From Streptococcus oralis Uo5 (lineage in GTDB: Bacteria; Bacillota; Bacilli; Lactobacillales; Streptococcaceae), in assembly GCF_000253155.1 (NCBI RefSeq), contig NC_015291.1:777001-841000 (forward strand): DNA of 64,000 bases. Reading direction: 5' to 3'. The position numbers were made by a program, and so were the translations under genes. How positions within the stretch are numbered: position 1 is the stretch's first letter; every line of letters starts with the position of its first letter. Under the pieces are notes generated by a model. That model was not told the DNA's origin. It made no database searches and saw nothing but the letters and a program-made list of their open reading frames with translations. Below are positions 5,109-48,950 of the stretch, piece after piece.

Positions 5109-6382
5109 GAGCAGTTGATTTAATCCAAAAGAAACGAGATGGTCAAGAACTGACTGCAGCTGAAATAAAATGGTTGGTAGAAGGCTATGTGGCTGGAACT
5201 GTTCCAGACTATCAGATGTCTGCTTTTGCTATGGCTGTTTATTTTAAAGGAATGACCACACGTGAGATTTCTGATCTAACGATGAATATGGTCAAGACAG
5301 GTCAGGAGTTTGACTTGTCAGCCATTGATGGGGTTAAAGTTGATAAGCATTCGACTGGTGGTGTAGGTGATAAAGTGACCTTAATCTTGGCTCCCCTTGT
5401 TGCGAGTTTCGGTGTGCCTGTTGCTAAAATGAGTGGTCGTGGTCTCGGCCATACTGGTGGGACAATTGATAAATTGGAGTCCATTAAGGGCTATCAAGTC
5501 GAGAGAAGTCAAGAGGATTTCATTCGTCAGGTACAGGATATTGGTGTATCTGTCATTGGGCAGTCCGATCAGCTGGTTAAAGCAGATAAACTTCTCTATG
5601 CCCTCCGTGATGTGACAGCAACTGTCGACACGATCCCTTTGATTGCGAGTTCGGTGATGAGCAAGAAAATTGCTGCAGGAGCGGATGCCATTTTGCTAGA
5701 TGTAACGGTCGGTGAGGGTGCCTTCATGAAGACTGTTGATGAGGCGCGCGAATTGGCTCAAACCATGGTGGATCTTGGTAAGGCAGTTGGTCGAAAGACG
5801 GTAGCAGTCATTACCGATATGAGTCAGCCCTTGGGAAGAGCCATTGGCAATCGTCTTGAAATCCTTGAGGCATTGGAGATTTTACAAGGGAAAGGCCGTC
5901 AGGATATTACCCACTTTATCTGTGAATTGGCGCAGATTATGCTTGGGTTGGCTGATGTTGAGAAAACGATCGAGGAAATCCGTCAACACCTGGAAAATGA
6001 CCAAGCACTGGCTAAGTTTGAAGAAATGGTAGCAGCACAAGGCGGTGATTTAGAAGATCTTTATCGTCCAGTCAAAGTTGCCCATGTGGTGGAAATTCCA
6101 GCTCAAGATACAGGTGTTATTTCAGCTCTTCCTGCAATGGAATTTGGACTCTATGCCATGAGACTAGGAGCTGGTCGTGCAATCAAGTCTGATGACTTGG
6201 ACTATGAAACAGGGATTGTTTTTGAAAAGAAAGTTGGAGACTCCGTTCAAAAGGGTGAAATTGTTGCAAAAGTTTATACAAATGGAAAAATTTCTTCTGA
6301 ACTAGTTACAGAATTTCAAAAATATGTTAAAATAAATGATGGAGTGCAAAGTTTACGAGAAATTATAGAAATTATCTCATAA
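5105..6382 (+). CDS. pdp: Pyrimidine-nucleoside phosphorylase
   Basis: Splits uridine, deoxyuridine and thymidine with phosphate into base and (deoxy)ribose-1-phosphate. The 425 residues match the family, with the phosphate-binding signature [10 protein letters not shown] at 81-90 and [17 protein letters not shown] at 110-126. The C-terminal domain is the usual alpha/beta hammerhead. It is translationally coupled to the methyltransferase and followed 19 bases later by deoC, which consumes the product after isomerisation. With cdd and the nucleoside importer downstream it forms a scavenging pathway. Confidence 0.96.
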
Positions 6383-6401
6383 AACCAGGGAGAATCCGAA
6401 T

Positions 6402-7064
6402 ATGAAGTTAAATAAATATATTGATCATACGCTTTTAAAGCAAGATGCAAGCCAAGAACAAATTGATCGTTTGCTATCTGAAGCGCGTGAGTATGACTTT
6501 GCCAGCGTTTGTGTCAATCCCACATGGGTGAATCATGCGAAAACAGGGCTTGAAGGCTCAGATGTAAAAGTTTGTACAGTAGTAGGTTTTCCTTTGGGAG
6601 CAACAACTTCAGCTGTGAAAGCTTTTGAAACAAAAGAAGCTGTCCAAAACGGTGCAGATGAGATTGATATGGTTATCAATGTTGGTGCCCTCAAATCAGG
6701 CAATCTGGATTTAGTTGAATCGGACATCCGTGCTGTCGTAGAAGCAAGTGGTGACAAGTTGGTGAAAGTCATTATCGAAGCTTGCTTGTTGACAGACGAT
6801 GAAAAGGTTGTGGCCTGCCAATTATCCCAGAAAGCAGGCGCTGACTTTGTCAAAACATCAACTGGATTTTCAACTGGTGGTGCCACTATTGAGGATGTTA
6901 AGTTAATGCGTAAAACAGTCGGGCCGGATATGGGAGTTAAGGCAGCTGGTGGAGCGCGTTCTTACGCAGACGCTCTTGCCTTTGTGGAGGCAGGTGCTAC
7001 TCGTATTGGAACATCCGCTGGTGTAGCAATCTTAAAAGGAGAATTGGCTGATGGCGACTACTGA
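6402..7064 (+). CDS. deoC: Deoxyribose-phosphate aldolase
   Basis: Cleaves 2-deoxyribose-5-phosphate to glyceraldehyde-3-phosphate and acetaldehyde, the last step of deoxynucleoside catabolism. The 220-residue TIM barrel has the Schiff-base lysine in FVKTSTGFS (Lys151) and the second catalytic lysine in GVKAAGG (Lys180). The Shine-Dalgarno region is CAGGGAGAA upstream of the ATG. Its end overlaps the start of cdd by 14 bases, indicating coupled translation. Confidence 0.96.
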
Positions 7065-13078: not shown

Positions 13079-15022
13079 GTGTCAAAAAAGGAAATCAATA
13101 TTAATAACTACAATGATGACGCCATTCAGGTGCTAGAAGGGTTGGATGCAGTCCGTAAACGTCCGGGGATGTATATCGGATCAACTGACGGTGCCGGTCT
13201 CCATCACCTAGTCTGGGAAATTGTGGACAATGCAGTCGATGAGGCCTTGTCTGGATTTGGTGACCGTATTGATGTGACCATTAATAAAGACGGCAGTTTA
13301 ACGGTTCAAGACCATGGTCGTGGGATGCCAACTGGGATGCACGCCATGGGAATTCCAACTGTTGAGGTTATCTTTACCATTCTCCACGCTGGAGGAAAAT
13401 TCGGTCAAGGCGGCTATAAGACATCTGGTGGTCTCCACGGGGTGGGATCTTCAGTCGTTAATGCCCTATCAAGTTGGCTGGAAGTTGAAATCACCCGTGA
13501 TGGAACAGTCTATAAGCAACGTTTTGAAAATGGTGGGAAACCAGTAACAACTCTTCAAAAGGTTGGGACAGCAGCTAAGTCGAAGACAGGTACCAAGGTG
13601 ACCTTCATGCCAGATGCCAGTATCTTTTCTACGACAGACTTCAAGTACAATACCATTTCAGAACGCCTTAATGAGTCAGCCTTTCTCTTGAAAAATGTGA
13701 CCTTGTCTTTGACAGATAAGCGAACAGAAGAAGCGATCGAGTTTCACTATGAAAATGGAGTGCAGGACTTTGTTTCTTATCTCAATGAAGACAAGGAAAC
13801 CTTGACGCCAGTCCTATACTTTGAAGGGGAAGACAATGGTTTCCAAGTGGAAGTAGCCCTCCAGTACAATGATGGATTTTCAGATAATATTCTATCCTTT
13901 GTCAATAACGTACGTACCAAGGATGGGGGGACGCATGAGACAGGACTCAAGTCAGCCATTACTAAGGTCATGAACGACTACGCGCGTAAGACTGGGCTCC
14001 TCAAGGAAAAAGATAAAAATCTTGAAGGTTCAGACTATCGTGAGGGACTAGCGGCCGTTCTTTCTATCTTAGTACCTGAAGAACACCTCCAGTTTGAAGG
14101 ACAGACCAAGGACAAACTTGGAAGTCCACTAGCTCGTCCGATTGTGGATAGCATTGTCGCAGAAAAATTAACTTTCTTCCTCATGGAAAATGGAGAACTA
14201 GCTTCCAATCTCATCCGCAAGGCTATCAAGGCTCGTGACGCTCGTGAAGCAGCACGTAAGGCACGTGATGAGAGCCGTAATGGTAAGAAAAATAAAAAAG
14301 ACAAGGGCTTGCTTTCTGGAAAATTAACCCCAGCCCAGTCTAAAAACCCTGCCAAGAATGAACTCTATCTGGTCGAAGGTGATTCTGCCGGTGGCTCTGC
14401 CAAGCAAGGTCGTGACCGCAAGTTCCAGGCTATCTTGCCCCTTCGTGGTAAGGTGATTAATACAGCCAAGGCCAAGATGGCAGATATCCTCAAAAATGAA
14501 GAAATCAATACCATGATTTATACCATCGGAGCGGGTGTCGGAGCAGACTTCTCTATTGAAGATGCCAACTATGACAAGATCATTATCATGACCGATGCGG
14601 ACACCGATGGTGCCCATATTCAAACCCTCCTCTTAACCTTCTTTTATCGCTACATGCGTCCACTAGTCGAGGCAGGACATGTCTATATCGCCCTTCCGCC
14701 TCTTTACAAGATGTCCAAAGGGAAAGGCAAGAAGGAAGAAGTGGCTTATGCTTGGACAGACGGAGAACTAGAAGAACTCCGCAAGCAATTTGGCAAAGGA
14801 GCCACTCTCCAACGCTACAAAGGTCTTGGTGAGATGAATGCGGACCAACTCTGGGAGACGACTATGAATCCTGAAACCCGTACCCTCATCCGTGTCACCA
14901 TCGAAGACCTAGCAAGCGCTGAACGCCGTGTCAATGTCCTCATGGGAGACAAGGTTGAACCACGCCGCAAGTGGATTGAAGACAATGTCAAGTTTACGCT
15001 GGAAGAAGCGACAGTGTTTTAA
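13079..15022 (+). CDS. parE: DNA topoisomerase IV subunit B
   Basis: The ATPase subunit of topoisomerase IV, which unlinks daughter chromosomes together with ParC. The 647 residues carry the GHKL ATPase domain ([15 protein letters not shown] near residue 20; [15 protein letters not shown] near residue 117), the transducer domain, then the TOPRIM domain with [15 protein letters not shown] and DADTDGAHI. The quinolone-region motif LPLRGK is intact. The start is GTG with AGGAGG seven bases upstream. parC lies 3.4 kb downstream, separated by an accessory island. Confidence 0.97.
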
Positions 15023-15034
15023 GGAGTATGATTA

Positions 15035-15511
15035 ATGGATAGTTCAGGACATTCGATTTTTGGAAGTTATTTGGGTTTGATTTTCTTAGTTTCTTTACCC
15101 TCGGCTATTCTTGCATTCTACATCAATAGTCGAAAAAAAAGTTTCCAAGGATTATATGCACCGATTGTATTTACTTTATTTATGATCTTGATGCTTTTAT
15201 TCAATATGAATCCCTCAGAATCCAGTGCTTTAGTAGCGACTGCTATTATGCTGTTTATTGGTTTTCCTTTGATAGCAGGAGCCTTAGTCTACACACTTAT
15301 TCGATTGTGTTATGTCTATCCGGAAAAACGGTGGAAGGCTTTTTTGATTTTCCTATCCTATATTTTAGGTCCCCTATCTGTGGGTATTCTGGGATGGTAT
15401 GTGGTAAATTTAGTTCAGATCCATCTGTTGACATTCTTGGTAATGATTTTGATGATTCTTGTTTCCTATCTTCCTCCTCTCTACCTCCATTACACTATAC
15501 GAAATCAGTAA
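15035..15511 (+). CDS. Small membrane protein, paralogue of the 17700 gene
   Basis: A 158-residue protein with about five membrane segments and no recognised family. It shares spaced positions with the 17700 gene product: a YTLIRLCYVYPEKRWKAF region (there YHSIRLYYLYKSIKWRVF) and a C-terminal VSYLPPLYLHYT (there VSYLPCQYLYTL). It follows parE by 12 bases with Shine-Dalgarno AAGGAG overlapping the parE stop, so it is probably co-transcribed with parE. The function is unknown. Confidence 0.7.
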   Translation: MDSSGHSIFGSYLGLIFLVSLPSAILAFYINSRKKSFQGLYAPIVFTLFMILMLLFNMNPSESSALVATAIMLFIGFPLIAGALVYTLIRLCYVYPEKRWKAFLIFLSYILGPLSVGILGWYVVNLVQIHLLTFLVMILMILVSYLPPLYLHYTIRNQ

Positions 15512-15529
15512 GCAAAGGGGGAGTGAATA

Positions 15530-16072
15530 GTGAACAGTTATTTAATAATGATATTTTTCTTTCTCGAAATTATTGTTATTGCTGGGATAATTCTTGATGC
15601 AATCTCCAATAAAGAGAAAATAGAATATTCAAGCTCCTTAAGTTCCCTAGTATTTATGGCTTGTAATATAGGAATGTTTGTAGTGTTCAATCCATTTTTA
15701 GATGAACCCTACTTAGGAGTATTTGTACGGGTATTTTCTTTATATACTCATGCACCTCTGTGCATAACGTATGCGATTACTAGTCTTTATAAGAGTATCA
15801 AGCACGTCAAGTATTTCCCTAGTAAGTTTGCACGAATCTTAATATCTAACGTTGCACTTATATTTCTACTCTCAATTGTAAATGTTTTAGTATTATTTAG
15901 AGGGATTAAAGAAATCTATATACTTATTTTCTTGCAAGGCCTTTTTTCAGGAATTCAATTCCTACTTTGGATGCTTGAAAGAAAAAGAGTTCGAAAACTA
16001 CAACAACAAAAGAAAGAAGATGCTCCTTTTACTAACCATGTTTCAGATGAGGATGAACTACATGAGAACTGA
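15530..16072 (+). CDS. Small membrane protein, paralogue of the 16318 gene
   Basis: A 180-residue protein with about four to five membrane segments and a charged C-terminus (RKRVRKLQQQKKED). It starts with GTG behind GGGGGAG. It aligns along its length with the 16318 product, also 180 residues: SIYKSIKHVKYFPSKFARI matches TLYKSVIHCRHFKSKFAIV, and ERKRVRKLQQQKKED matches EKKRIRGIQKQEELD. Its last 11 bases overlap an ATG that opens a remnant adenylyltransferase frame, the same overlap seen in the intact second copy. The function is unknown. Confidence 0.7.
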   Translation: MNSYLIMIFFFLEIIVIAGIILDAISNKEKIEYSSSLSSLVFMACNIGMFVVFNPFLDEPYLGVFVRVFSLYTHAPLCITYAITSLYKSIKHVKYFPSKFARILISNVALIFLLSIVNVLVLFRGIKEIYILIFLQGLFSGIQFLLWMLERKRVRKLQQQKKEDAPFTNHVSDEDELHEN

Positions 16073-16145
16073 CCAGGAAATACTTGACCTGATTTTAGGA
16101 ACAGTTAAAACTTTAAAAGTTGACACTGGTTTGAACTACGAGTAA
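16062..16145 (+). pseudogene. Remnant 5' end of an aminoglycoside 6-adenylyltransferase gene
   Basis: A 27-codon frame starting with ATG inside the end of the 15530 gene. Its residues QEILDLILGTVKTLKV match EQMLRLILQTAKTLQV of the intact gene at 16850, and its MRTDQEILDLIL start is typical of the ANT(6) family. After the matching part it continues as DTGLNYE and stops. The 245 bases up to the next gene show no further recognisable part of the enzyme. This is the decayed first copy of a tandem membrane-protein/adenylyltransferase pair. Confidence 0.75.
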
Positions 16146-16317
16146 CTCTTCGTGAATAATCTAACGGAAAATATCACTCAGGCCTGTTTCTTTAGGGGAC
16201 GTTTTATACTACTTGAGGGATAATGTTTTTACCATACAGGAAAGTTGCATCGTTCAAGTAAAAATGATTGTCACATTTGTTGTGTAAATAATATGTAGAA
16301 CTAATGGAGGTTCAGTA

Positions 16318-16860
16318 ATGAGTAGTGAATCTATAATTTCTATTTTCGTTGTTGTCATAGTAATTTTTGGAATTATAAGTAATTTAATCTCCAACTTGGG
16401 GAGAAAAGAGTATGCTCGTTCAATATCCCTGTTTTTACTGTCCATTTTAACTATTGGTGTCTGTCTATCAAATATACCAGTGGAAGGTAACTATTACTAT
16501 GGGTTAAGATTTATTGGGTTAAAATTTATTTTGTTTTATCATGACTATTTCGCCCCCTTGATGATTGTTTATTCATTTTATACTCTATATAAGAGCGTAA
16601 TCCATTGTAGGCATTTTAAGAGCAAATTTGCTATAGTACTTCGATTGAATGCCACCTTCATTTTTCTCCTTTCATTGGTAAATATATTTGTTCTATGGGA
16701 AATGATAGTAAAACACCAAAGAAGTAACATAATATCTATTTGTTATATTTTTATTTTTTTAGGGATTTGCTCAACTATCCAATTCATTGTAGGAGAACTT
16801 GAGAAGAAAAGAATACGAGGCATCCAAAAACAAGAGGAGCTAGATAGTTATGAAAAATAA
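16318..16860 (+). CDS. Small membrane protein, paralogue of the 15530 gene
   Basis: A 180-residue AT-rich membrane protein with about four to five spans and a charged C-terminal tail (KKRIRGIQKQEEL). The start is ATG behind GGAGG. It pairs with the adenylyltransferase gene through an 11-base overlap, identical in length to the overlap between the 15530 gene and the adenylyltransferase remnant. This argues that the two-gene unit was duplicated as a whole. No enzymatic motif is seen. A role linked to the adenylyltransferase is only suggested by the coupling. Confidence 0.7.
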   Translation: MSSESIISIFVVVIVIFGIISNLISNLGRKEYARSISLFLLSILTIGVCLSNIPVEGNYYYGLRFIGLKFILFYHDYFAPLMIVYSFYTLYKSVIHCRHFKSKFAIVLRLNATFIFLLSLVNIFVLWEMIVKHQRSNIISICYIFIFLGICSTIQFIVGELEKKRIRGIQKQEELDSYEK

Positions 16861-17698
16861 CTCTATAAAAGATATGCGCAGAAAATATAGAAGTCAAGAG
16901 CAAATGCTGAGATTGATTTTACAAACAGCTAAAACTTTACAAGTTGAGGCTGTCGCCATGTCCGGTTCACAAACTGATAAAAAAGCACCCAAAGACGAGT
17001 TTCAGGATTACGACGTGGTCTATGTCGTGGACGACTTAGATAATCTGACGAGTGAACTTTCTTGGTTGGACCAGTTTGGCAAACGTATTATCGAGCAGCA
17101 TGTCTTGCTTGGTCACCGTCGCCTCTATCTCATGCTCTTTGAAGATGGCAATAGGATTGATTTGACCCTCTGCCCCAAAGATCATATCCAAGAATGGGTG
17201 GATAGTGAGGCTGGGTTCACCGTTTTAGAAGATGAGAAGGGATTATTTGAACCTTATTCCCCGAGTCCTCAACGTTTTTGGACAAGCCCAGCTAGTGCGA
17301 TTGATTTTGAAAAAGCTTGTAATGAATTTTGGTGGGTGTCAGCCTATGTGGTCAAGGGAATCTGTCGCAAGCAAGTTATCTATGCGACCGACCATCTCTA
17401 TGGTATCTGTCAGCAAGAGTTACTAAAAGTCTTAGCTTGGCAGGTAGTAAGTGATAGGGGAACAGTTGATATCGGTAAGAACTACAAGTATCTCTTTAAC
17501 TATTTACCTGCTGAGAAAGAGAAACAATTCTCAAATCTGCTTGATTTCTCAAGTTTAGATAAAATCACCCAGTCTTTGTTTGCTACCATGGAACTTTTCC
17601 ACCAAGAGGCTCAATTCCTTGCTCACAAGATGGGATTTGACTATGATATGGAAGTAGCTGAGAAGATGATTGAGTATGCTAAGGAAAGGTTGAACTAG
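16850..17698 (+). CDS. Aminoglycoside 6-adenylyltransferase-like protein (ANT(6)/AadK family)
   Basis: A 282-residue nucleotidyltransferase of the ANT(6)/AadE/AadK family, members of which transfer AMP from ATP to streptomycin. The nucleotidyltransferase signature is present: MSGSQTDKKAPKDEFQDYDV at about residues 36-55 (GS...D-x-D), and the second acidic strand GNRIDLTLCPKDH lies at about 100-112. The length is normal for the family. The start is coupled to the upstream membrane protein by an 11-base overlap, with GAGGAG about 10 bases before it. A later in-frame ATG at 16874 is possible. Whether it gives streptomycin resistance cannot be told from the sequence; chromosomal relatives often have little effect. 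Confidence 0.85.
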   Translation: MKNNSIKDMRRKYRSQEQMLRLILQTAKTLQVEAVAMSGSQTDKKAPKDEFQDYDVVYVVDDLDNLTSELSWLDQFGKRIIEQHVLLGHRRLYLMLFEDGNRIDLTLCPKDHIQEWVDSEAGFTVLEDEKGLFEPYSPSPQRFWTSPASAIDFEKACNEFWWVSAYVVKGICRKQVIYATDHLYGICQQELLKVLAWQVVSDRGTVDIGKNYKYLFNYLPAEKEKQFSNLLDFSSLDKITQSLFATMELFHQEAQFLAHKMGFDYDMEVAEKMIEYAKERLN

Positions 17699-17699
17699 T

Positions 17700-18191
17700 A
17701 TGTTAGATTATGTATTTGCTACATTTTTTATGGGATTCCCAGGAGTACAAATTTTAGTATTGGTGTCCTCTATATTTCTAGCTATCAAAAGAAATAAGTT
17801 ACATAAAAGGGTGTATGGCTTATTTTTCCCGATTATTATAACGATGTGTAATATTTGGTTGTTTTCCATAGATCGCACAGAGCTTTTTGATGATGCTTTA
17901 AGATTTTCTTTCTTTCTAATTTCTTTTTGTTTACCTATGCTTATTTCTTCCACGCTCTATCACTCAATACGCTTATATTATTTATACAAATCAATCAAGT
18001 GGAGAGTCTTCCCTATCAGTATCTGTTATTTATTTGGTTTAATTTTTCATTATCTTAATACAATGCATTGGGAGGAGCTATTTCGAGGGCAAAAGTTTAT
18101 GTTTAATATCTTGCTGATATCAACTGCTATAGTTTCTTATTTACCTTGTCAATATTTATACACACTTCAAAGAAGAAAGAATAATCCATAG
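17700..18191 (+). CDS. Small membrane protein, paralogue of the 15035 gene
   Basis: A 163-residue AT-rich protein with about five membrane segments. It is related to the 15035 product in the LYYLYKSIKWRVF region and the VSYLPCQYLYTLQ C-terminus. It begins one base after the adenylyltransferase stop codon, so it is probably translated from the same mRNA. It is the last gene of the parE-parC island. The function is unknown. Confidence 0.7.
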   Translation: MLDYVFATFFMGFPGVQILVLVSSIFLAIKRNKLHKRVYGLFFPIIITMCNIWLFSIDRTELFDDALRFSFFLISFCLPMLISSTLYHSIRLYYLYKSIKWRVFPISICYLFGLIFHYLNTMHWEELFRGQKFMFNILLISTAIVSYLPCQYLYTLQRRKNNP

Positions 18192-18418
18192 GAAATAGTT
18201 GTTTTTGCTTAATCTAAATAAGTGTTGTGAATGACTTAAATAGTATCTAAGAATATTTTTCTCAAGTACCAATTTTAATGTAAAACCTACTCTATATTCT
18301 TTGAAAGGAGTTGAACACGCCTTAAATGCTGTGCGAAAAAGATAAATTCTCTTGTGAGCATCGCTCACTGTAATAATTTCTTATTTTCACTTTGCATTTT
18401 ACGGGCTTTGTATCTTAT
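18192..18418 (+). other. Leader region before parC
   Basis: 227 bases without a credible gene. It contains a perfect hairpin GTGAGC-ATC-GCTCAC at about 18353-18367 and a Shine-Dalgarno-like GAAAGGAG near 18301 followed by no sustained frame. No BOX or RUP repeat was recognised. No consensus promoter for parC was found, and the parC ATG has no good Shine-Dalgarno site. Confidence 0.45.
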
Positions 18419-20899
18419 ATGAGTAACATTCAAAACATGTCCCTTGAGGACATCATGGGAGAGCGCTTTGGTCGCTACTCCAAGTATATTATTCAAGACC
18501 GGGCTTTGCCAGACATTCGGGATGGTTTGAAGCCGGTTCAGCGTCGCATTCTTTATTCGATGAATAAGGATGGCAATACTTTTGACAAGAGCTACCGTAA
18601 GTCTGCCAAGTCTGTCGGGAATATCATGGGGAATTTCCACCCACACGGTGACAGTTCCATCTATGATGCCATGGTCCGTATGTCTCAGGACTGGAAAAAT
18701 CGTGAGATTCTAGTTGAAATGCACGGTAACAACGGTTCTATGGACGGAGATCCGCCGGCGGCTATGCGTTATACAGAGGCACGTTTGTCTGAGATTGCAG
18801 GTTATCTCCTTCAGGACATCGAGAAAAAGACCGTTCCTTTTGCGTGGAACTTTGACGATACCGAGAAAGAACCAACTGTCTTACCAGCAGCCTTTCCCAA
18901 CCTTTTGGTCAATGGTTCGACTGGGATTTCAGCTGGATATGCTACGGACATTCCACCACATAATTTGGCCGAAGTTATCGATGCGACAGTCTACATGATT
19001 GACCACCCAACTGCCAAGGTGGATAAGCTGATGGAATTCTTGCCTGGACCAGATTTCCCGACTGGAGGGATTATCCAAGGCCGTGACGAAATCAAAAAGG
19101 CCTATGAAACTGGGAAAGGGCGCGTGGCCGTTCGCTCTAAGACGGAGATTGAAAAGCTAAAAGGTGGTAAGGAACAAATCGTTATCACTGAAATTCCTTA
19201 TGAAATCAATAAGGCCAATCTGGTCAAGAAAATCGACGATGTTCGTGTCAATAACAAGGTGGCAGGGATCGCTGAGGTTCGTGATGAGTCTGACCGTGAC
19301 GGTCTTCGTATCGCTATTGAACTTAAGAAAGATGCTAATACCGAGCTCGTTCTTAACTATCTCTTCAAATACACCGACCTGCAAATCAACTACAACTTTA
19401 ACATGGTGGCGATTGACAATTTCACACCTCGTCAGGTTGGGATTGTCCCAATCCTGTCTAGCTATATCGCCCACCGTCGTGAAGTGATTTTGGCGCGTTC
19501 ACGCTTTGACAAGGAAAAGGCTGAGAAACGTCTTCACATCGTTGAAGGTTTAATTCGCGTGATTTCGATTTTGGATGAAGTCATTGCCCTTATCCGTGCT
19601 TCTGAGAACAAAGCTGACGCCAAGGAAAACCTCAAGGTCAGCTATGAGTTTACAGAAGAGCAGGCTGAAGCTATCGTGACCTTGCAACTTTACCGTTTGA
19701 CCAATACAGACGTGGTTGTCTTGCAGGAAGAAGAAGCAGAACTTCGTGAAAAGATTGCCATGCTTGCGGCTATCATTAGTGATGAACGGACTATGTACAA
19801 TCTCATGAAGAAAGAACTTCGTGAGGTCAAGAAGAAATTTGCGACACCACGTTTGAGTACTTTGGAAGATACTGCGAAAGCAATCGAGATTGACACAGCT
19901 AGTTTGATTGCCGAGGAAGATACCTATGTCAGCGTGACTAAGGCAGGTTATATCAAGCGTACCAGTCCACGTTCCTTTGCAGCATCCACTCTGGAAGAAA
20001 TTGGCAAGCGTGATGATGATCGTTTGATCTTTGTTCAATCTGCCAAGACAACCCAGCATCTCTTGATGTTCACGACTCTTGGGAATGTCATCTATCGACC
20101 AATCCACGAATTGGCAGATATTCGTTGGAAGGATATCGGTGAGCACTTGAGCCAAACCATTACCAACTTTGAAACTAACGAAGAAATCCTTTATGCAGAA
20201 GTCGTGGATCAGTTTGATGATGCGACAACCTACTTTGCAGCAACTCGCCTTGGTCAAATCAAACGCGTAGAACGCAAAGAATTCTCTCCATGGCGGACCT
20301 ACAAGTCGAAGTCTGTTAAGTATGCTAAGCTCAAAGACGAGACAGACCAGATTGTAGCAGTAGCACCAATCAAACTGGATGATGTTCTCTTGATTAGTCA
20401 AAATGGTTATGCCCTTCGTTTTAATATCGAAGAGGTTCCGGTTGTTAGTGCCAAGGCTGCGGGTGTCAAGGCTATGAACCTGAAAGCAGATGATGCACTT
20501 CAGGCTGCCTTTATCTGTAACACCTCATCCTTCTACCTCTTGACCCAACGCGGTAGTTTAAAACGTGTTTCTATCGACGAAATTCCAGCAACCAGCCGTG
20601 CCAAACGAGGCCTACAAGTCTTGCGTGAGTTGAAAAACAAACCGCACCGAGTCTTCTTGGCTGGAGCAGTTGCAGAGCAAGGTTTCGTTGGTGATCTTTT
20701 TAGTACAGAAATGGAAGAAAACGATCAAACGCTCCTTGTCCAATCGAACAAGGGAACAATCTATGAGAGTCGATTGCAAGACCTCAACTTGTCAGAACGT
20801 ACTAGCAATGGAAGCTTTATTTCAGACACCATTTCAGATGAAGAAGTTTTCGATGCTTACCTCAAAGAAGTCTTTAAAGAGGATAAAGCGAATTCATAA
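18419..20899 (+). CDS. parC: DNA topoisomerase IV subunit A
   Basis: The DNA-cleaving subunit of topoisomerase IV. The 826 residues run from MSNIQNMSLEDIMGERFGRY through the winged-helix/tower core with active tyrosine in AAMRYTEARL (Tyr118) to a C-terminal beta-pinwheel. The quinolone-resistance positions are the sensitive type: Ser79 and Asp83 in [12 protein letters not shown], and Lys137. Position 52 is Gly (KDGNTF), where the remembered pneumococcal sequence has Ser. The ATG at 18419 fits the family start. An in-frame TTG at 18392 is less likely, and neither has a clear Shine-Dalgarno site. Confidence 0.96.
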   Translation: MSNIQNMSLEDIMGERFGRYSKYIIQDRALPDIRDGLKPVQRRILYSMNKDGNTFDKSYRKSAKSVGNIMGNFHPHGDSSIYDAMVRMSQDWKNREILVEMHGNNGSMDGDPPAAMRYTEARLSEIAGYLLQDIEKKTVPFAWNFDDTEKEPTVLPAAFPNLLVNGSTGISAGYATDIPPHNLAEVIDATVYMIDHPTAKVDKLMEFLPGPDFPTGGIIQGRDEIKKAYETGKGRVAVRSKTEIEKLKGGKEQIVITEIPYEINKANLVKKIDDVRVNNKVAGIAEVRDESDRDGLRIAIELKKDANTELVLNYLFKYTDLQINYNFNMVAIDNFTPRQVGIVPILSSYIAHRREVILARSRFDKEKAEKRLHIVEGLIRVISILDEVIALIRASENKADAKENLKVSYEFTEEQAEAIVTLQLYRLTNTDVVVLQEEEAELREKIAMLAAIISDERTMYNLMKKELREVKKKFATPRLSTLEDTAKAIEIDTASLIAEEDTYVSVTKAGYIKRTSPRSFAASTLEEIGKRDDDRLIFVQSAKTTQHLLMFTTLGNVIYRPIHELADIRWKDIGEHLSQTITNFETNEEILYAEVVDQFDDATTYFAATRLGQIKRVERKEFSPWRTYKSKSVKYAKLKDETDQIVAVAPIKLDDVLLISQNGYALRFNIEEVPVVSAKAAGVKAMNLKADDALQAAFICNTSSFYLLTQRGSLKRVSIDEIPATSRAKRGLQVLRELKNKPHRVFLAGAVAEQGFVGDLFSTEMEENDQTLLVQSNKGTIYESRLQDLNLSERTSNGSFISDTISDEEVFDAYLKEVFKEDKANS

Positions 20900-43270: not shown

Positions 43271-44545
43271 ATGAACGAAATCAAATGTCCCAACTGTGGG
43301 GAAGTCTTTACAGTAAATGAAAGTCAGTATGCCGAACTTTTATCCCAAGTGAGAACGGCTGAGTTTGATAAGGAATTGCACGATCGAATGAAGCAGGAGC
43401 TGGCCTTGGCTGAACAAAAGGCTATGAATGAGCAACAGTCTAAACTGGCTCAGAAGGATCAAGAAATTGCGCAATTGCAGAGCCAAATCCAAAACTTTGA
43501 TACAGAGAAAGAGTTGGCCAAGAAAGAAGTTGAACAGATAAGCCATGAGGCTTTATTGGCTAAGGACAAGGAAGTGCAGGCCTTGGAAAACCAACTGGCT
43601 ACCTTGCGTTTGGAGCATGAAAATCAACTGCAAAAGACCCTTTCTGACCTAGAAAAAGAACGGGATCAAGTTAAAAATCAGCTCCTCTTGCAAGAAAAGG
43701 AAAATGAGTTGTCTTTGGCTTCTGTTAAGCAGAATTACGAAGCCCAGCTCAAGGCTGCTAGTGAACAAGTAGAATTTTACAAGAATTTCAAAGCTCAACA
43801 ATCAACCAAAGCTATCGGGGAAAGTTTAGAACAGTATGCGGAAAGTGAGTTTAACAAGGTCCGTAGTTTTGCTTTTCCAAATGCCTACTTTGAGAAGGAT
43901 AATAAGGTTTCTGCGCGTGGTTCTAAAGGCGATTTTATCTTCCGTGAATGTGATGAAAATGGGTTAGAATTCATTTCTATCATGTTTGAAATGAAAAATG
44001 AAGCGGACGGCACAGAAAAGAAGCATAAGAATGCAGATTTTTACAAGGAATTGGACAAGGATCGTCGGGAGAAGAACTGTGAATATGCCGTGTTGGTGAC
44101 CATGTTAGAAGCAGATAACGACTACTTTAACACAGGAATTGTCGATGTCAGTCATGAGTATGAAAAGATGTATGTGGTTCGTCCCCAGTTCTTTATCCAG
44201 TTAATTGGTCTCTTACGAAATGCTGCACTTAATTCCCTAAAATACAAGCAGGAGTTAGCGCTTGTTCGGGAGCAGAATATCGATATTACGCATTTTGAGG
44301 AAGATTTGGATGCCTTCAAAGTAGCTTTTGCCAAAAACTACAACTCTGCTTCAACCAACTTTGGAAAAGCTATTGATGAAATTGATAAAGCCATCAAACG
44401 CATGGAAGAGGTCAAAAAGTTCCTAACCACATCTGAAAACCAACTCCGCCTCGCTAACAATAAATTGGAAGATGTTTCGGTTAAAAAATTGACCCGGAAA
44501 AATCCAACCATGAAAGCGAAGTTTGAAGCGTTGAAGGGGGAATAG
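43271..44545 (+). CDS. DUF2130 domain protein with long coiled coil
   Basis: A 424-residue protein: an N-terminal zinc-ribbon half (CPNCGEVF, residues 6-13), a long Gln/Glu/Lys coiled coil (about 20-175), then the DUF2130 domain (about 180-400). DUF2130 contains acidic and lysine residues arranged as in PD-(D/E)XK nuclease-like folds (KGDFIFRE, FEMKNEADGT, RREKNCEYAVLVT); whether it cuts DNA is not known. Base composition and codons look like core genes. The Shine-Dalgarno site is AAGAGGAAAG. The 3' end contains AAGGGGG, which seems originally to have served the next gene, truB. Confidence 0.85.
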   Translation: MNEIKCPNCGEVFTVNESQYAELLSQVRTAEFDKELHDRMKQELALAEQKAMNEQQSKLAQKDQEIAQLQSQIQNFDTEKELAKKEVEQISHEALLAKDKEVQALENQLATLRLEHENQLQKTLSDLEKERDQVKNQLLLQEKENELSLASVKQNYEAQLKAASEQVEFYKNFKAQQSTKAIGESLEQYAESEFNKVRSFAFPNAYFEKDNKVSARGSKGDFIFRECDENGLEFISIMFEMKNEADGTEKKHKNADFYKELDKDRREKNCEYAVLVTMLEADNDYFNTGIVDVSHEYEKMYVVRPQFFIQLIGLLRNAALNSLKYKQELALVREQNIDITHFEEDLDAFKVAFAKNYNSASTNFGKAIDEIDKAIKRMEEVKKFLTTSENQLRLANNKLEDVSVKKLTRKNPTMKAKFEALKGE

Positions 44546-44551
44546 AAAGCA
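44543..44551 (+). repeat. Left copy of a 9-bp direct repeat flanking the inserted cassette
   Basis: TAGAAAGCA, containing the DUF2130 stop codon. The same nine bases recur at 48059-48067 just before truB. Confidence 0.65.
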
Positions 44552-46225
44552 GTGGAAAATGAATTATTAGTATTGAATACTGAAGAAGTAAATGAGTCCG
44601 AAAATTTAAACTATGATGAGTTAGAAGAACTGTTGGAACAGCAATTTACAATGGAGTTTTCTAATCTTGAGAAATTAGAACTAGATTGTAAAGAAATTAG
44701 TTCACCGGATAAATTAGGAGATGTTATTTTAGATGAAATTTGGAATCAATTCGGGAACCAAATTGGTTTAGATATGACAAGTGATACACTATTAAAGCAA
44801 TATAACGAAAAGAACCCAAATGGCTATACAAAAGAAATTGCTGATCGGATTGTTAAAGACAAAAGATATACTGATGCAAATAAGGCAATGAAACATAAGC
44901 AAAAATTAGGAAACTTGAAGGATGAATACACCGGAAAAAAATTAAAAATAAACGAAAAAGCTAATCTGGATCACGTCGTACCGCGAAAACAGATTTTTGA
45001 AAATCCATGGAGAAAAATAGCAGATATTGATCCTTCTGATTTAGCTAACAAATCTGAAAATTTATCTGCGACTAATGAATCTCTTAATAAAAGTAAAGGA
45101 GCAAAATCCAATAGCGATTACATAAAAAATAGGGAACTAAGAGAAAAAAATCTTAGAGAACAAGTTAAAAAAGCAAATGAAAAAATAGATAAGATGAATA
45201 TCTCAGATGCAGAAAAGCGAAATCTTAAAGCTGAAAATAATAAAAGATTAAATGATAAATTAGCAGCTGATTCGAAGAAAATGCTCAAATCTGAAAAAAC
45301 AGCGAAGAAAGCTATTAATAAGGATATTGCAAAGAAAGCTTCTGTCAGAATGGCCAATAAAGCTGGTAAAGATGCTATAAAAGCTATATTTGTTGCAGCT
45401 CTATTTGGAATGCTAAAAGAAATAATGAATGCTTTAGTGAGGTATTTTAAAGCAAAAAAACAATCTTTTGATACATTTATGGAGGAAATGAAAAAAGCTC
45501 TTCATTCATTTTTTGGTAAAATCAAAGATTTTATTAAAGTGGGTGTAGATAGTTTTGTTGGAAGCATTGTTGGAGAAATTATTGGCGCATTTAACCAGAA
45601 ATTACAAAAACTTCCAAACTTGATTAAACAATTATTTGGTTCTATCAGAGAAAGCATTTCTTATTTATCTAACCCAGAAAATCAAACACATTCTACAGCA
45701 ATTAAGATAGCTCACATTTCAAAAATTATTACATCGGGTTTAGTTGCTGTAGGAGCAATGTTTTTAGGAGAATATTTTGAACAGTTCTTAAATAAGATAC
45801 CAGGTATGACTTTTGAAATAAAACTTCTAGGAACAATTGCTAATATTTTAGGGATGTTCTTAGCAAGTTTACTAACTGGAATCTTAGGAGCGATAATCAT
45901 TAACGGACTTGATCAATTTATTTCAAAAAAAAAATTAATTGGGGAAAATCAAAAACAACAAGCTGATAAGAAGAACGAATTGCTAAGAATTCAGGATGTT
46001 CAAATTTTTGTTGCCGAGCAGAATGTTGCTGTTAAGAGAAATGATATCTTCAGTAAGATGGCTAAGAACCATCAAAAACTAAGAGAACTTCTTGGTAATG
46101 TTCAAGAGGAGTTTTCTAATTCAAAGATTGATTTCAAACAGCGATTATTAGCTAACGAAATGTACTTTGATGAAAAGCAAAGTGAACTTGAAGAAATGCA
46201 AAATGTATTAAACGATTTATTATAG
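44552..46225 (+). CDS. Predicted HNH-like nuclease with membrane segments (cassette gene 1)
   Basis: A 557-residue protein of no recognised named family. In order: an acidic N-terminus (1-60); an HNH-like stretch with LDHVVPRKQI (Asp140, His141, Pro144), ENLSATN (Asn170) and LNKSKGAKS (Asn179), the spacing of a His-Me/HNH active site; a Lys-rich helical region (about 190-275); hydrophobic segments at about 276-297, 330-347, 384-407 and 424-453; and a C-terminal coiled coil (about 460-557). It starts with GTG six bases after the DUF2130 stop, using AAGGGGG from that gene. It is AT-rich and rich in AAA/ATT codons, unlike its neighbours. The nuclease reading is inference from motif spacing. Confidence 0.75.
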   Translation: MENELLVLNTEEVNESENLNYDELEELLEQQFTMEFSNLEKLELDCKEISSPDKLGDVILDEIWNQFGNQIGLDMTSDTLLKQYNEKNPNGYTKEIADRIVKDKRYTDANKAMKHKQKLGNLKDEYTGKKLKINEKANLDHVVPRKQIFENPWRKIADIDPSDLANKSENLSATNESLNKSKGAKSNSDYIKNRELREKNLREQVKKANEKIDKMNISDAEKRNLKAENNKRLNDKLAADSKKMLKSEKTAKKAINKDIAKKASVRMANKAGKDAIKAIFVAALFGMLKEIMNALVRYFKAKKQSFDTFMEEMKKALHSFFGKIKDFIKVGVDSFVGSIVGEIIGAFNQKLQKLPNLIKQLFGSIRESISYLSNPENQTHSTAIKIAHISKIITSGLVAVGAMFLGEYFEQFLNKIPGMTFEIKLLGTIANILGMFLASLLTGILGAIIINGLDQFISKKKLIGENQKQQADKKNELLRIQDVQIFVAEQNVAVKRNDIFSKMAKNHQKLRELLGNVQEEFSNSKIDFKQRLLANEMYFDEKQSELEEMQNVLNDLL

Positions 46226-46234
46226 GAGAATGTT

Positions 46235-46963
46235 ATGTCAGAAGAACTAGAGATTCAGGTTTTGGTAAAGTCTGAAAAATTTAATGAGAAAAAAGAAGCG
46301 TTAAAAGCTTTTAGTGAAGAGATTCCAGAACAATCAGATTTACCAACTGTCCCCCAAGATAATCTTATGTTTGGATTTATTAACACGGAATATGATGTTA
46401 CTGGCAAGGATTTAAATGCTCTCACCGATGCTGTTCAAAATAGAATGATTGAACAAAACAAGCATATTAAAAAGATTATTCAAGAATTTAATACAATTTA
46501 CGAAACTTTTCAACTTTTAGATGATGAGTATATTCAAAAAATTTCAAAGTCTTTGATTGCAGCCAAAGAGGCAAATAATAAAGCTACACAGGGATTGCAC
46601 GAGATAGAAGAATATCAAACTGGTAATAAAAAACTATTAGATGATGTTTTTAAACAGAATAAAGATTTAATTGATGTTTTAAAGAAACACCATGATAGAC
46701 TTCATGATTTAGGAAAACTAGAAAATAGTTTTAACGATTTGCATTTACAAGTTGAAGAAACACAAAATGAACTAAAAAACGACATAGATAAGATGAATGT
46801 TCTATTAATAGACGAAAGTAAAAATATTACTTTAATAGTTGAGAAATTTCAAACTGAATTAGAGGAAAAACAAAAAGAGATTAGTTTCCTTAGAAAAGGA
46901 TTCTATACCTTAGGAATCTTATCCGCTCTAATAGTAGTATTTCTGTTATTTAAAGGAATGTAG
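46235..46963 (+). CDS. Tail-anchored coiled-coil protein (cassette gene 2)
   Basis: A 242-residue protein of unknown family. The N-terminal 60 residues are soluble and acidic, residues about 65-215 are predicted helical coiled coil (QNKHIKKIIQEFNTIYE ... EEKQKEISFLRKG), and a single C-terminal membrane segment (about 221-240, TLGILSALIVVFLLF) ends the chain, so most of it faces the cytoplasm. The Shine-Dalgarno site is ATAGGAGA, 9 bases after cassette gene 1. The next gene starts immediately after its stop. It may act as the membrane adaptor linking the nuclease-like protein to the ATPase; this is inference. Confidence 0.75.
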   Translation: MSEELEIQVLVKSEKFNEKKEALKAFSEEIPEQSDLPTVPQDNLMFGFINTEYDVTGKDLNALTDAVQNRMIEQNKHIKKIIQEFNTIYETFQLLDDEYIQKISKSLIAAKEANNKATQGLHEIEEYQTGNKKLLDDVFKQNKDLIDVLKKHHDRLHDLGKLENSFNDLHLQVEETQNELKNDIDKMNVLLIDESKNITLIVEKFQTELEEKQKEISFLRKGFYTLGILSALIVVFLLFKGM

Positions 46964-48052
46964 ATGATTAGTGAAACATATTTAAAACTGTTAAAATCAG
47001 AAGTGAAGAAAATTGATAATTTAACAAATAGTACTTATGAATTAGAAGCAATTCTTCAAGATATTGTTGATAATGTTAAAAATGCTGACTTAGAGTTTAT
47101 AAAACGATTAGGAAACTTAACTACTAAAGAGACATTCTCTAAAATGAAAGATAAGCAAACTAGCATATTGGAATTATTGTATAAATATCTTGGCTCTAGA
47201 GTTATTGATACAGATTATTTGATTTTGAAAGAAACAAAAAAAAATAAATCATTTGAAGCACTAGCAAATGATTTAAAGTCATTAATAGGTTTAGAAAATG
47301 TGAAGAAAGAGATTGAAGATCTAGTCGCATTTAATAAAGTTCAACAAAGTAGAGAAAAAATCGGTCTTAAAAAAACAAATAGAACGATGCATATGGCGTT
47401 TTTAGGTAATCCAGGTACTGGTAAAACTACTGTGGCTAGAATCGTTGGGAATATGTATCGGTCATTAGGAATATTAAGTAAAGGCCACTTTATTGAGGCA
47501 AGTAGAACAGACTTAATAGCAGAATATCAAGGACAAACGGCTTTGAAAGTTAAGAGATTGATACAAAAAGCCAAAGGGGGTGTATTGTTTATTGATGAAG
47601 CATATAGTATTACTGAAAACGATAAAAGTGATAGTTATGGTCGAGAGTGTTTAACTGAGTTAACTAAAGCATTAGAAGACTATCGTGAAGATTTGGTGGT
47701 TATTGTTGCTGGATATGATGAATTGATGAAAAAATTTTTTGAATCTAATCCTGGGTTAAAATCAAGATTTAATTATTTTATTACGTTTGAAGATTATACT
47801 GTGGACCAAATGTTTGACATTTTTCTTTCATATTGTAAAAATGAAGAGTACAATTTGCATGATTCTGCAAAAGAAACATTAAAAAAATATTTAGAATTAC
47901 ATAGTAGCAATTCTGAAAATAAAAATGCAAATGGTCGATTTGTAAGAAATGTATTTGATAAAATTATTATGAATCAGGCAAAACGTTTAAGTAACCTTTC
48001 TTTTGCTACAAAAGAGAATTATGTAACAATTCTTGAAGACGACATATTTTAA
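46964..48052 (+). CDS. AAA+ ATPase, CbbX/SpoVK-like (cassette gene 3)
   Basis: A 362-residue AAA+ protein. A helical N-terminal domain (1-100) precedes the ATPase: Walker A GNPGTGKTTVAR (about 145-156), pore loop AEYQGQT, Walker B GVLFIDEAYSI, sensor-1 region VIVAGYDE and arginine-finger segment NPGLKSRFNY, then a C-terminal lid. The DEAYSI and pore-loop sequences are those of the CbbX/SpoVK/EccA group, hexameric remodelling ATPases that thread part of a partner protein. It starts directly after the stop of cassette gene 2 (TAGATG). A partner within the cassette is the likely substrate; that is inference. Confidence 0.88.
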   Translation: MISETYLKLLKSEVKKIDNLTNSTYELEAILQDIVDNVKNADLEFIKRLGNLTTKETFSKMKDKQTSILELLYKYLGSRVIDTDYLILKETKKNKSFEALANDLKSLIGLENVKKEIEDLVAFNKVQQSREKIGLKKTNRTMHMAFLGNPGTGKTTVARIVGNMYRSLGILSKGHFIEASRTDLIAEYQGQTALKVKRLIQKAKGGVLFIDEAYSITENDKSDSYGRECLTELTKALEDYREDLVVIVAGYDELMKKFFESNPGLKSRFNYFITFEDYTVDQMFDIFLSYCKNEEYNLHDSAKETLKKYLELHSSNSENKNANGRFVRNVFDKIIMNQAKRLSNLSFATKENYVTILEDDIF

Positions 48053-48058
48053 TTGAAT

Positions 48059-48067
48059 TAGAAAGCA
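48059..48067 (+). repeat. Right copy of the 9-bp direct repeat
   Basis: TAGAAAGCA, five bases before the truB ATG; see the left copy at 44543-44551. Confidence 0.65.
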
Positions 48068-48071
48068 ACAA

Positions 48072-48950
48072 ATGAACGGTATTATCAACTTAAAAAAAGA
48101 AGCGGGGATGACCTCGCATGATGCGGTTTTTAAACTGCGTAAGATTTTGGGAACCAAGAAGATTGGTCATGGTGGGACCTTGGATCCAGATGTGGTGGGT
48201 GTTTTGCCTATTGCAGTTGGCAAGGCAACCCGCATGGTCGAGTTTATGCAGGACGAGGGCAAGGTCTATGAGGGGGAGATCACTCTTGGTTATTCAACGA
48301 CGACTGAGGATGCCAGTGGAGAAGTGGTCGCAGAGACACCTGTTTTGTCGTCCTTGGATGAAACCACTGTCGATGAAGCGATTGCGAGTCTGACTGGGCC
48401 TATTACTCAGATTCCACCTATGTATTCGGCTGTTAAGGTTAATGGTCGCAAGCTCTATGAGTATGCGCGTGCTGGTCAGGAAGTGGAGCGTCCAGAACGT
48501 CAGGTGACCATTTATCAATTTGAGCGGACTAGTCCGATTTCTTATGAGAATCACCTCGCACGATTTACTTTTCGTGTAAAATGCAGTAAGGGGACTTATA
48601 TCCGTACCTTGTCAGTTGACTTGGGAGAGAAGCTTGGTTATGCGGCCCATATGTCCCATCTGACACGGACGAGTGCTGCAGGGTTACAACTGGAGGATGC
48701 TCTTACCTTGGACGAAATTGCTGAAAAAGTGGAGGCTGGTCAGCTGGACTTTCTCCATCCTCTAGAGATTGGAATAGGTGACCTTGTCAAAGTTTTCCTA
48801 ACTCCAGAAGAGGCTACAGAAGTGCGCTTTGGTCGTTTTATCGAGCTAGACCAAACGGACCAAGAATTGGCTGCCTTTGAGGGAGACAAATTGCTAGCCA
48901 TTCTAGAAAAACGAGACAATTTCTACAAACCAAGGAAGGTTTTTAGCTAG
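48072..48950 (+). CDS. truB: tRNA pseudouridine-55 synthase
   Basis: Makes pseudouridine 55 in the T loop of nearly all tRNAs. The 292 residues have the catalytic aspartate in [18 protein letters not shown] (Asp38) and the C-terminal domain found in Gram-positive TruB. The ATG at 48072 fits the family start, but the upstream sequence AATTAGAAAGCAACA has no good Shine-Dalgarno site. This is odd for this genome and fits displacement from AAGGGGG by the upstream insertion. Core-like codon use resumes here. Confidence 0.95.

Follow-up and report, generated by a model that had tools for sequence, protein, structure and literature searches.

What do three AT-rich genes packed between two core genes of a streptococcal chromosome encode, and do they belong to the immune repertoire of the cell? 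The genes occupy positions 44552 to 48052 of a 64-kb stretch (the window) of the 1.96-Mb single-contig chromosome of Streptococcus oralis Uo5. They lie intact and head to tail on the forward strand, between the DUF2130 gene and truB, and have a G+C content of 0.28-0.30, compared with 0.41 in the DUF2130 gene and 0.47 in truB. A previous sequence-only reading had described a three-gene module here, with an HNH-type motif and membrane segments, a tail-anchored coil and a CbbX-like ATPase; the module and all of these components are supported by the present analysis. With moderate probability, the trio is a mobile cassette for a membrane-docked immune complex directed against phages or other incoming DNA. 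We infer this defence role from family association, patchy distribution and transfer.

Gene 1 (44552..46225, 557 residues, GTG start, G+C 0.30) encodes what appears to be an HNH nuclease, a probable DNA cutter with membrane segments. The D/H-H...N...N/H motif of the HNH superfamily is present: all 38 aligned rows have H141, N170, N179 and K182, and D140 is almost invariant (D140/H141 at 44969-44974, N170 at 45059-45061, N179-K182 at 45086-45097), and the same four are invariant in a separate 20-row alignment. The nuclease domain (residues ~100-260, 44849..45331), placed by these residues and by the structure model, falls within the sole confident part of that model (residues 81-260, block pLDDT 79-94), and model residues 78-261 match HNH-type nucleases structurally at middling Z. 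The strongest hydrophobic segment, spanning residues 423-458 (45818..45925), is a putative membrane insertion, and weaker segments lie at residues 278-296 and 386-405; membrane topology for all cassette proteins is taken from hydropathy only. PADLOC models were run in the window on four proteins, the DUF2130 protein and the three products of the trio. Two stretches of gene 1 match the candidate family PDC-M40B (E 7.6e-12); the better one covers residues 198-518, behind the HNH motif, and PADLOC gives no curated cut-off for this match. No significant sequence match links gene 1 to the DUF262/GmrSD-type or Cas9-type HNH nucleases, from which it differs by its membrane segments and its partners. 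Records list gene 1 and its relatives as hypothetical, ‘cation diffusion facilitator’ or ‘cobalamin adenosyltransferase’.

Gene 2 (46235..46963, 242 residues) encodes a helical coil with a conserved N-terminal region of ~110 residues and a 25-residue hydrophobic tail (residues 218-242, 46886..46960), a predicted membrane anchor in hydropathy and alignment. Conserved positions are F16, N61, F85, L95, D96, Y99 and I103. As read from the alignment, the hydrophobic C-terminus recurs in 11 of 12 rows and is absent from the row of locus L037. There, at 5530-6585, gene 2 takes a form without the membrane tail and with an N-terminal extension that resembles a winged helix by eye; a WYL regulator adjoins this trio operon. 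For gene 2, PADLOC gives no PDC-M40C match at E values up to 1. Zorya was considered and rejected, as gene 2 matches only positions 543-669 of the 677 in the ZorA model (E 4e-4) and no ZorB is found in the four proteins scanned.

Gene 3 (46964..48052, 362 residues) encodes an AAA+ ATPase of the CbbX/SpoVK/EccA clade, with an AAA core, an AAA_lid_6 and clade-level similarity. Profile positions 94-364, the ATPase core, align with the CbbX structure 3zuh (E 6.1e-75). The core motif columns are conserved over 11 sequences; they include GNPGTGKTT at residues 148-156 (47405..47431), which we take to be Walker A, and the stretch at residues 207-212, presumably Walker B, while the L037 row has A at residue 153. 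The nearest named models are SpoVK, CbbX and EccA, and identity with any of the three proper was rejected, with scores under the NCBIfam equivalog cut-offs (285.6/422.95, 234/459.25 and 217.9/466.65 bits, respectively). IetAS was likewise set aside: gene 3 reaches 24.3 of 510 bits against the NCBIfam IetA model, the PADLOC IetA match (3.5e-8) is confined to residues 107-219, and IetS is absent from the four scanned proteins. No PDC-M40 model in PADLOC matches gene 3.

The ATPase shares its core and core motif residues with the CbbX/SpoVK/EccA clade, but differs in carrying its own N-terminal domain outside the match (residues 1-95, 46964..47248), a possible partner or substrate adaptor, and in being tied to an HNH/coil pair. 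Divergence of the two parts was compared among 12 trio loci, in the 63 of 66 pairs whose gene 3 identity is below 0.8. Mean pairwise identity is 0.63 for residues 96-362 versus 0.26 for residues 1-95, and over the same pairs it is 35% for gene 1 and 31% for gene 2. The pairwise identities of the N-domain, gene 1 and gene 2 correlate at 0.67-0.78, a correlated divergence that shared descent alone would also give. Such a pattern is what one would expect of a conserved motor whose adaptor is specific to its partner. The divergence of the N-domain agrees with the available parts of a published account, in which the characterised members of the clade are dedicated chaperones whose variable N-domains may recruit the target (PMC10659427).

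Conservation of the trio as a unit, which the sequence-only reading had left to be checked, is seen in both genome samples. Across 398 Bacilli genomes, the gene 3 profile ranks six loci on top at 571-613 bits, followed by the next match at 363, and in all six (G000, G575, G588, G560, G549, G532) genes 2 and 3 adjoin the nuclease gene. Five of these loci are rows of the profile itself; a control search with the window sequence alone returns the same six on top at 342-773 bits, with the next at 272. The wider ATPase clade is present at 1e-60 in 200 of the 398 genomes. Among 118 Streptococcus genomes, eight have gene 2, and each of these also carries genes 1 and 3. Further trios were read in G065, G046, G063, G037, G092, G093, G060, G132 and two Lactococcus plasmids, and one Streptococcus mitis contig (n=1) carries an 86%-identical copy.

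The nuclease has a wider range of partners. Its profile gives 13 full-length matches in the Bacilli genomes, the window included, and the other 12 neighbourhoods were read individually. Genes 2 and 3 are absent at seven of the 13 loci, mostly in favour of another coil-like partner: a PDC-M09A gene (PADLOC) at five (G472, G533, G745, G568, G789), an M09A-like gene found by BLAST only, without a PADLOC match, at G566, and at G732 only a small protein, also without a PADLOC match. The sequence-only reading had named separate occurrence of the three genes as grounds for abandoning the module; such separation holds for the nuclease family, which is common to other arrangements, and not for gene 2 and this kind of gene 3, which in these samples are found only in the trio. 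Presence also varies between genomes, as that reading had asked. The nuclease search matches 10 of the 118 Streptococcus genomes, and nine remain once G104, whose match reads by eye as RHS-like with HNH at its end, is removed. One of the nine is a remnant that retains the beginning of gene 1 and a fragment of gene 3 (G077), and another is broken, its genes 1 and 3 matching in frameshifted pieces (G063), so the unit is dispensable. Among the Bacilli loci, the G560 nuclease gene is interrupted by stops.

Where the sequence-only reading could not match the set to a named system, the nuclease now provides the connection. Besides the PDC-M40B match of gene 1, relatives match this family up to 1.6e-39, and the distant relative L045 matches PDC-M09B (2.6e-12). 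On the Escherichia coli plasmid locus L031, an HNH member is paired with a PDC-M40C coil (2.3e-26) that has a C-terminal hydrophobic segment, and several relatives adjoin M09A coils. A sister pair of M09A and nuclease (at least 80% of the pair) is chromosomal in 365 of 5,426 E. coli genomes, 376 of which have any match; one of three loci inspected lies beside type I restriction and SIR2 genes. The partner genes of the trio fail to match: gene 2 lacks a PDC-M40C match and gene 3 a PDC-M40 match, and the trio, which has an AAA+ ATPase instead, shows no PDC-M09A or PDC-M09B match up to E 1 (PADLOC). The trio as a whole is therefore neither PDC-M40 nor PDC-M09.

A further link leads to Juk. On a Raoultella plasmid, a WYL gene is followed by a JukA gene (match of 2.6e-58 to residues 10-238 of 404), which lies 9 bases upstream of the nuclease gene; Pfam names the same JukA-like protein Ubiq_cyt_C_chap (E 1.4e-5). 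The pair occurs on three plasmids from three enterobacterial genera at 97.5-100% identity. Given this spacing and recurrence, the HNH nuclease is a plausible Juk-type effector. One of the three plasmids carries abpA and a helicase gene ~6 kb further on, and in G412 a second JukA gene (1.2e-45) lies ~3.3 kb from a distant nuclease member. The gene order WYL-JukA-HNH can be followed at L005 (6594-9404) and L185 (8001-10811), both enterobacterial plasmids. According to the accessible text of one review, JukA recognises proteins made early by the phage inside the EPI vesicle and cooperates with a range of effectors; those named there are JukB, phospholipases and transcriptional regulators, and an HNH membrane nuclease is not among them (PMC13282480). 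No JukA match is present in the DUF2130 protein or the three trio proteins (PADLOC), a difference from Juk.

Three trio copies have recognised defence genes no more than ~3 kb away: L003 has type I restriction genes, L149 has TmtA and PDC-S02, and L150 has AbiE. As the neighbours were picked by eye before scanning, these are illustrations and not an enrichment. The proximity to defence genes raised by the sequence-only reading thus stands beside nuclease relatives and fails beside the trio in the window, where no adjoining defence gene was recognised among neighbours judged by eye to be housekeeping, with PADLOC run on the DUF2130 protein and the trio. Relatives are found on 53 plasmid records, 15 of them conjugative plasmids. 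The 260-kb Aeromonas phage LAh10 carries an HNH member beside a PDC-M09A coil (L010, 2796-5392), and phages D3, D6 and D9 also match gene 1; perhaps a phage-borne nuclease serves the exclusion of rival phages. In summary, the trio is one arrangement, made of three parts and seen in Bacilli, of a candidate defence effector that is widespread and presumably the same in the trio and in PDC-M40, PDC-M09 and Juk-linked loci. No description of the trio was found in the titles, abstract starts and passages of open-licence literature.

The cassette lies exactly between the two core genes. Upstream is the DUF2130 gene (43271..44545, forward strand; PF09903, E 1.6e-81) and downstream truB (48072..48950, forward strand), both outside the cassette; truB is present in 118 of 118 Streptococcus genomes. 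Forty truB regions from these genomes were read (L077-L116), mostly the best truB matches, and DUF2130 is found in 39 of them. The site is empty in 19, with 12-16 bases between the end of the DUF2130 match and truB. It holds the trio in one (G065), a 203-base gap in another and other cargo in the remaining 19: a 415-residue membrane protein, a GNAT and hydrolase pair, small membrane proteins or an LXG-like set. The latter, in G049 (L077), lies upstream of truB, looks by eye like a toxin set and includes a repeated segment as well as small partner open reading frames; DUF2130 is not reached in this region. In G116 (L078, 2211-5245) a Hachiman pair (HamA 2.4e-122, HamB 6.3e-221) lies upstream of DUF2130, one gene from the trio site. 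Two 9-bp copies of TAGAAAGCA border the window cassette, the left (44543..44551) formed by the DUF2130 stop codon and six further bases, and the right (48059..48067) directly upstream of truB. Several empty sites hold one copy. The left repeat is altered in the G046, G063 and G065 copies, and other cargo mostly lacks it, so the repeat is a border clue and not a mechanism.

Synonymous divergence (dS) suggests that the cassette is exchanged horizontally, being less diverged than its flanks against the distant G046. Between the window and G046, dS is 0.84, 0.26 and 0.84 for genes 1, 2 and 3, compared with 1.88 for truB and saturation for DUF2130; between G065 and G046 it is 0.73, 0.33 and 0.87, compared with 1.58 for truB. 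The window and G065 are an uninformative pair (0.61, 0.46 and 0.26, with truB at 0.44 and DUF2130 at 1.03). Ratios of nonsynonymous to synonymous divergence (dN/dS) of 0.10-0.24 in the three comparisons indicate purifying selection. At least three insertion sites are used: DUF2130/truB, a position beside an ABC-transporter pair (L038-L040, L152) and one downstream of an RNA-methyltransferase-like gene (L147, L150), the genes being named by eye. The L147 and L150 trios come from two different bacterial families with the same kind of RNA-methyltransferase-like gene upstream, by eye another shared site. Elsewhere in the window, an AT-rich insert at 15035-18191 (small membrane-protein open reading frames, G+C 0.30-0.36) between topoisomerase-like genes (13079-15022 and 18392-20899) is perhaps another accessory slot amid core genes; its open reading frame at 16850-17698 (G+C 0.41) resembles a relative of aminoglycoside adenylyltransferases by eye.

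In the proposed mechanism, the effector role would fall to gene 1, as an HNH DNase docked on the inner side of the membrane. Gene 2, tethered to the same membrane by its tail, would act as sensor, scaffold or inhibitor, in the place that JukA or the PDC-M09A and PDC-M40C coils take elsewhere. Gene 3 would serve as a dedicated cytosolic remodeller, in the way that CbbX, EccA and SpoVK each serve their own targets, and may thread or pull gene 2 or gene 1, so that the nuclease is switched on upon infection or DNA entry, or is reset. The DNase would then cleave DNA entering at the membrane or, if the response is abortive, the DNA of the host. The favoured roles are thus a coil as sensor or scaffold, an ATPase as switch and a membrane-docked HNH DNase, and everything in them beyond co-encoding is inferred. 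A more specific version, held tentatively, is a new Gram-positive form of immunity at the membrane surface, in which the dedicated CbbX/SpoVK-clade ATPase mechanically remodels the tail-anchored coil and thereby releases or aims the embedded DNase at DNA crossing the membrane. The trio would then be one arm of a far larger superfamily, whose common HNH-membrane effector is combined with interchangeable sensors (JukA, PDC-M09A, PDC-M40C, or coil and AAA+ ATPase), some of them on large Aeromonas phages.

Several points weigh against the immune reading. The signal sensed and the target of the ATPase lack direct support, the model of the membrane part of gene 1 is weak, and that of gene 2, all helix, is of low confidence (pLDDT 59.5). 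The PDC families are catalogued candidates and not established systems. The JukA-nuclease plasmids represent one lineage, given their near identity, and JukA is reported, in the accessible text, in more than 20% of Gram-negatives (PMC13282480), so the neighbourhood could have arisen by chance. Two of the three inspected E. coli loci adjoin fimbrial genes on an island and not defence genes, the neighbours of the L155 trio give weak PADLOC matches only, and PADLOC scans of neighbours covered those that looked promising by eye. Many trio copies, as in the window, sit amid genes resembling core genes. Between the window and G065, two of the three genes are not below truB in dS.

Other functions account for parts of these observations. 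The trio might be an abortive-infection or toxin-antitoxin-like module, in which the nuclease acts as a suicide toxin by attacking the DNA of the host while the coil and ATPase are its keepers, and in which maintenance of the plasmid or cassette may matter equally. Broken copies (G063, G077, G560) fit a costly toxin, and so do the many plasmid-borne relatives; decay equally fits any dispensable cassette, however, and three conserved components with two membrane anchors differ from a toxin with a small antitoxin, which makes this reading unlikely, though worth keeping in view. A predicted membrane-docked DNase could also be a gatekeeper that restricts transforming or conjugative DNA and not phages. 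Streptococci of this group are naturally competent, and the relatives on conjugative plasmids could act in entry exclusion, but the family extends across many other bacteria and Aeromonas phages and one of its lineages pairs the nuclease with the anti-phage sensor JukA, leaving such a gatekeeper improbable.

The affinity of gene 3 to SpoVK, CbbX and EccA would also suit a chaperone that assembles a membrane complex, either like a type VII secretion system or in the cell envelope, with the HNH protein incidental or secreted; the LXG-like protein beside truB in G049 is cargo of a compatible kind. The invariance of the HNH residues, the members in Gram-negatives and in an Aeromonas phage without this ATPase among the neighbours listed, and the insertion-site and transfer evidence speak against such a chaperone and make it highly improbable. 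HNH enzymes can be homing nucleases, and the exact insertion seen in the window, bordered by a 9-bp direct repeat, together with variable occupancy, might suggest that the enzyme promotes the entry of its own genes into chromosomal sites. The number of different insertion sites and the use of the DUF2130/truB site by cargo without an HNH enzyme argue otherwise, and neither membrane segments nor two partner proteins are traits of homing, which is hardly credible here.

The immune reading turns a previously unannotated gene trio into a testable defence candidate. An HNH nuclease in the membrane becomes the common protein that connects a JukA operon with PADLOC candidates catalogued separately. 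If the immune reading is true, immunity would employ a chaperone of the CbbX/SpoVK type, and Gram-positive bacteria would rely on a different sensor for early detection at the membrane.

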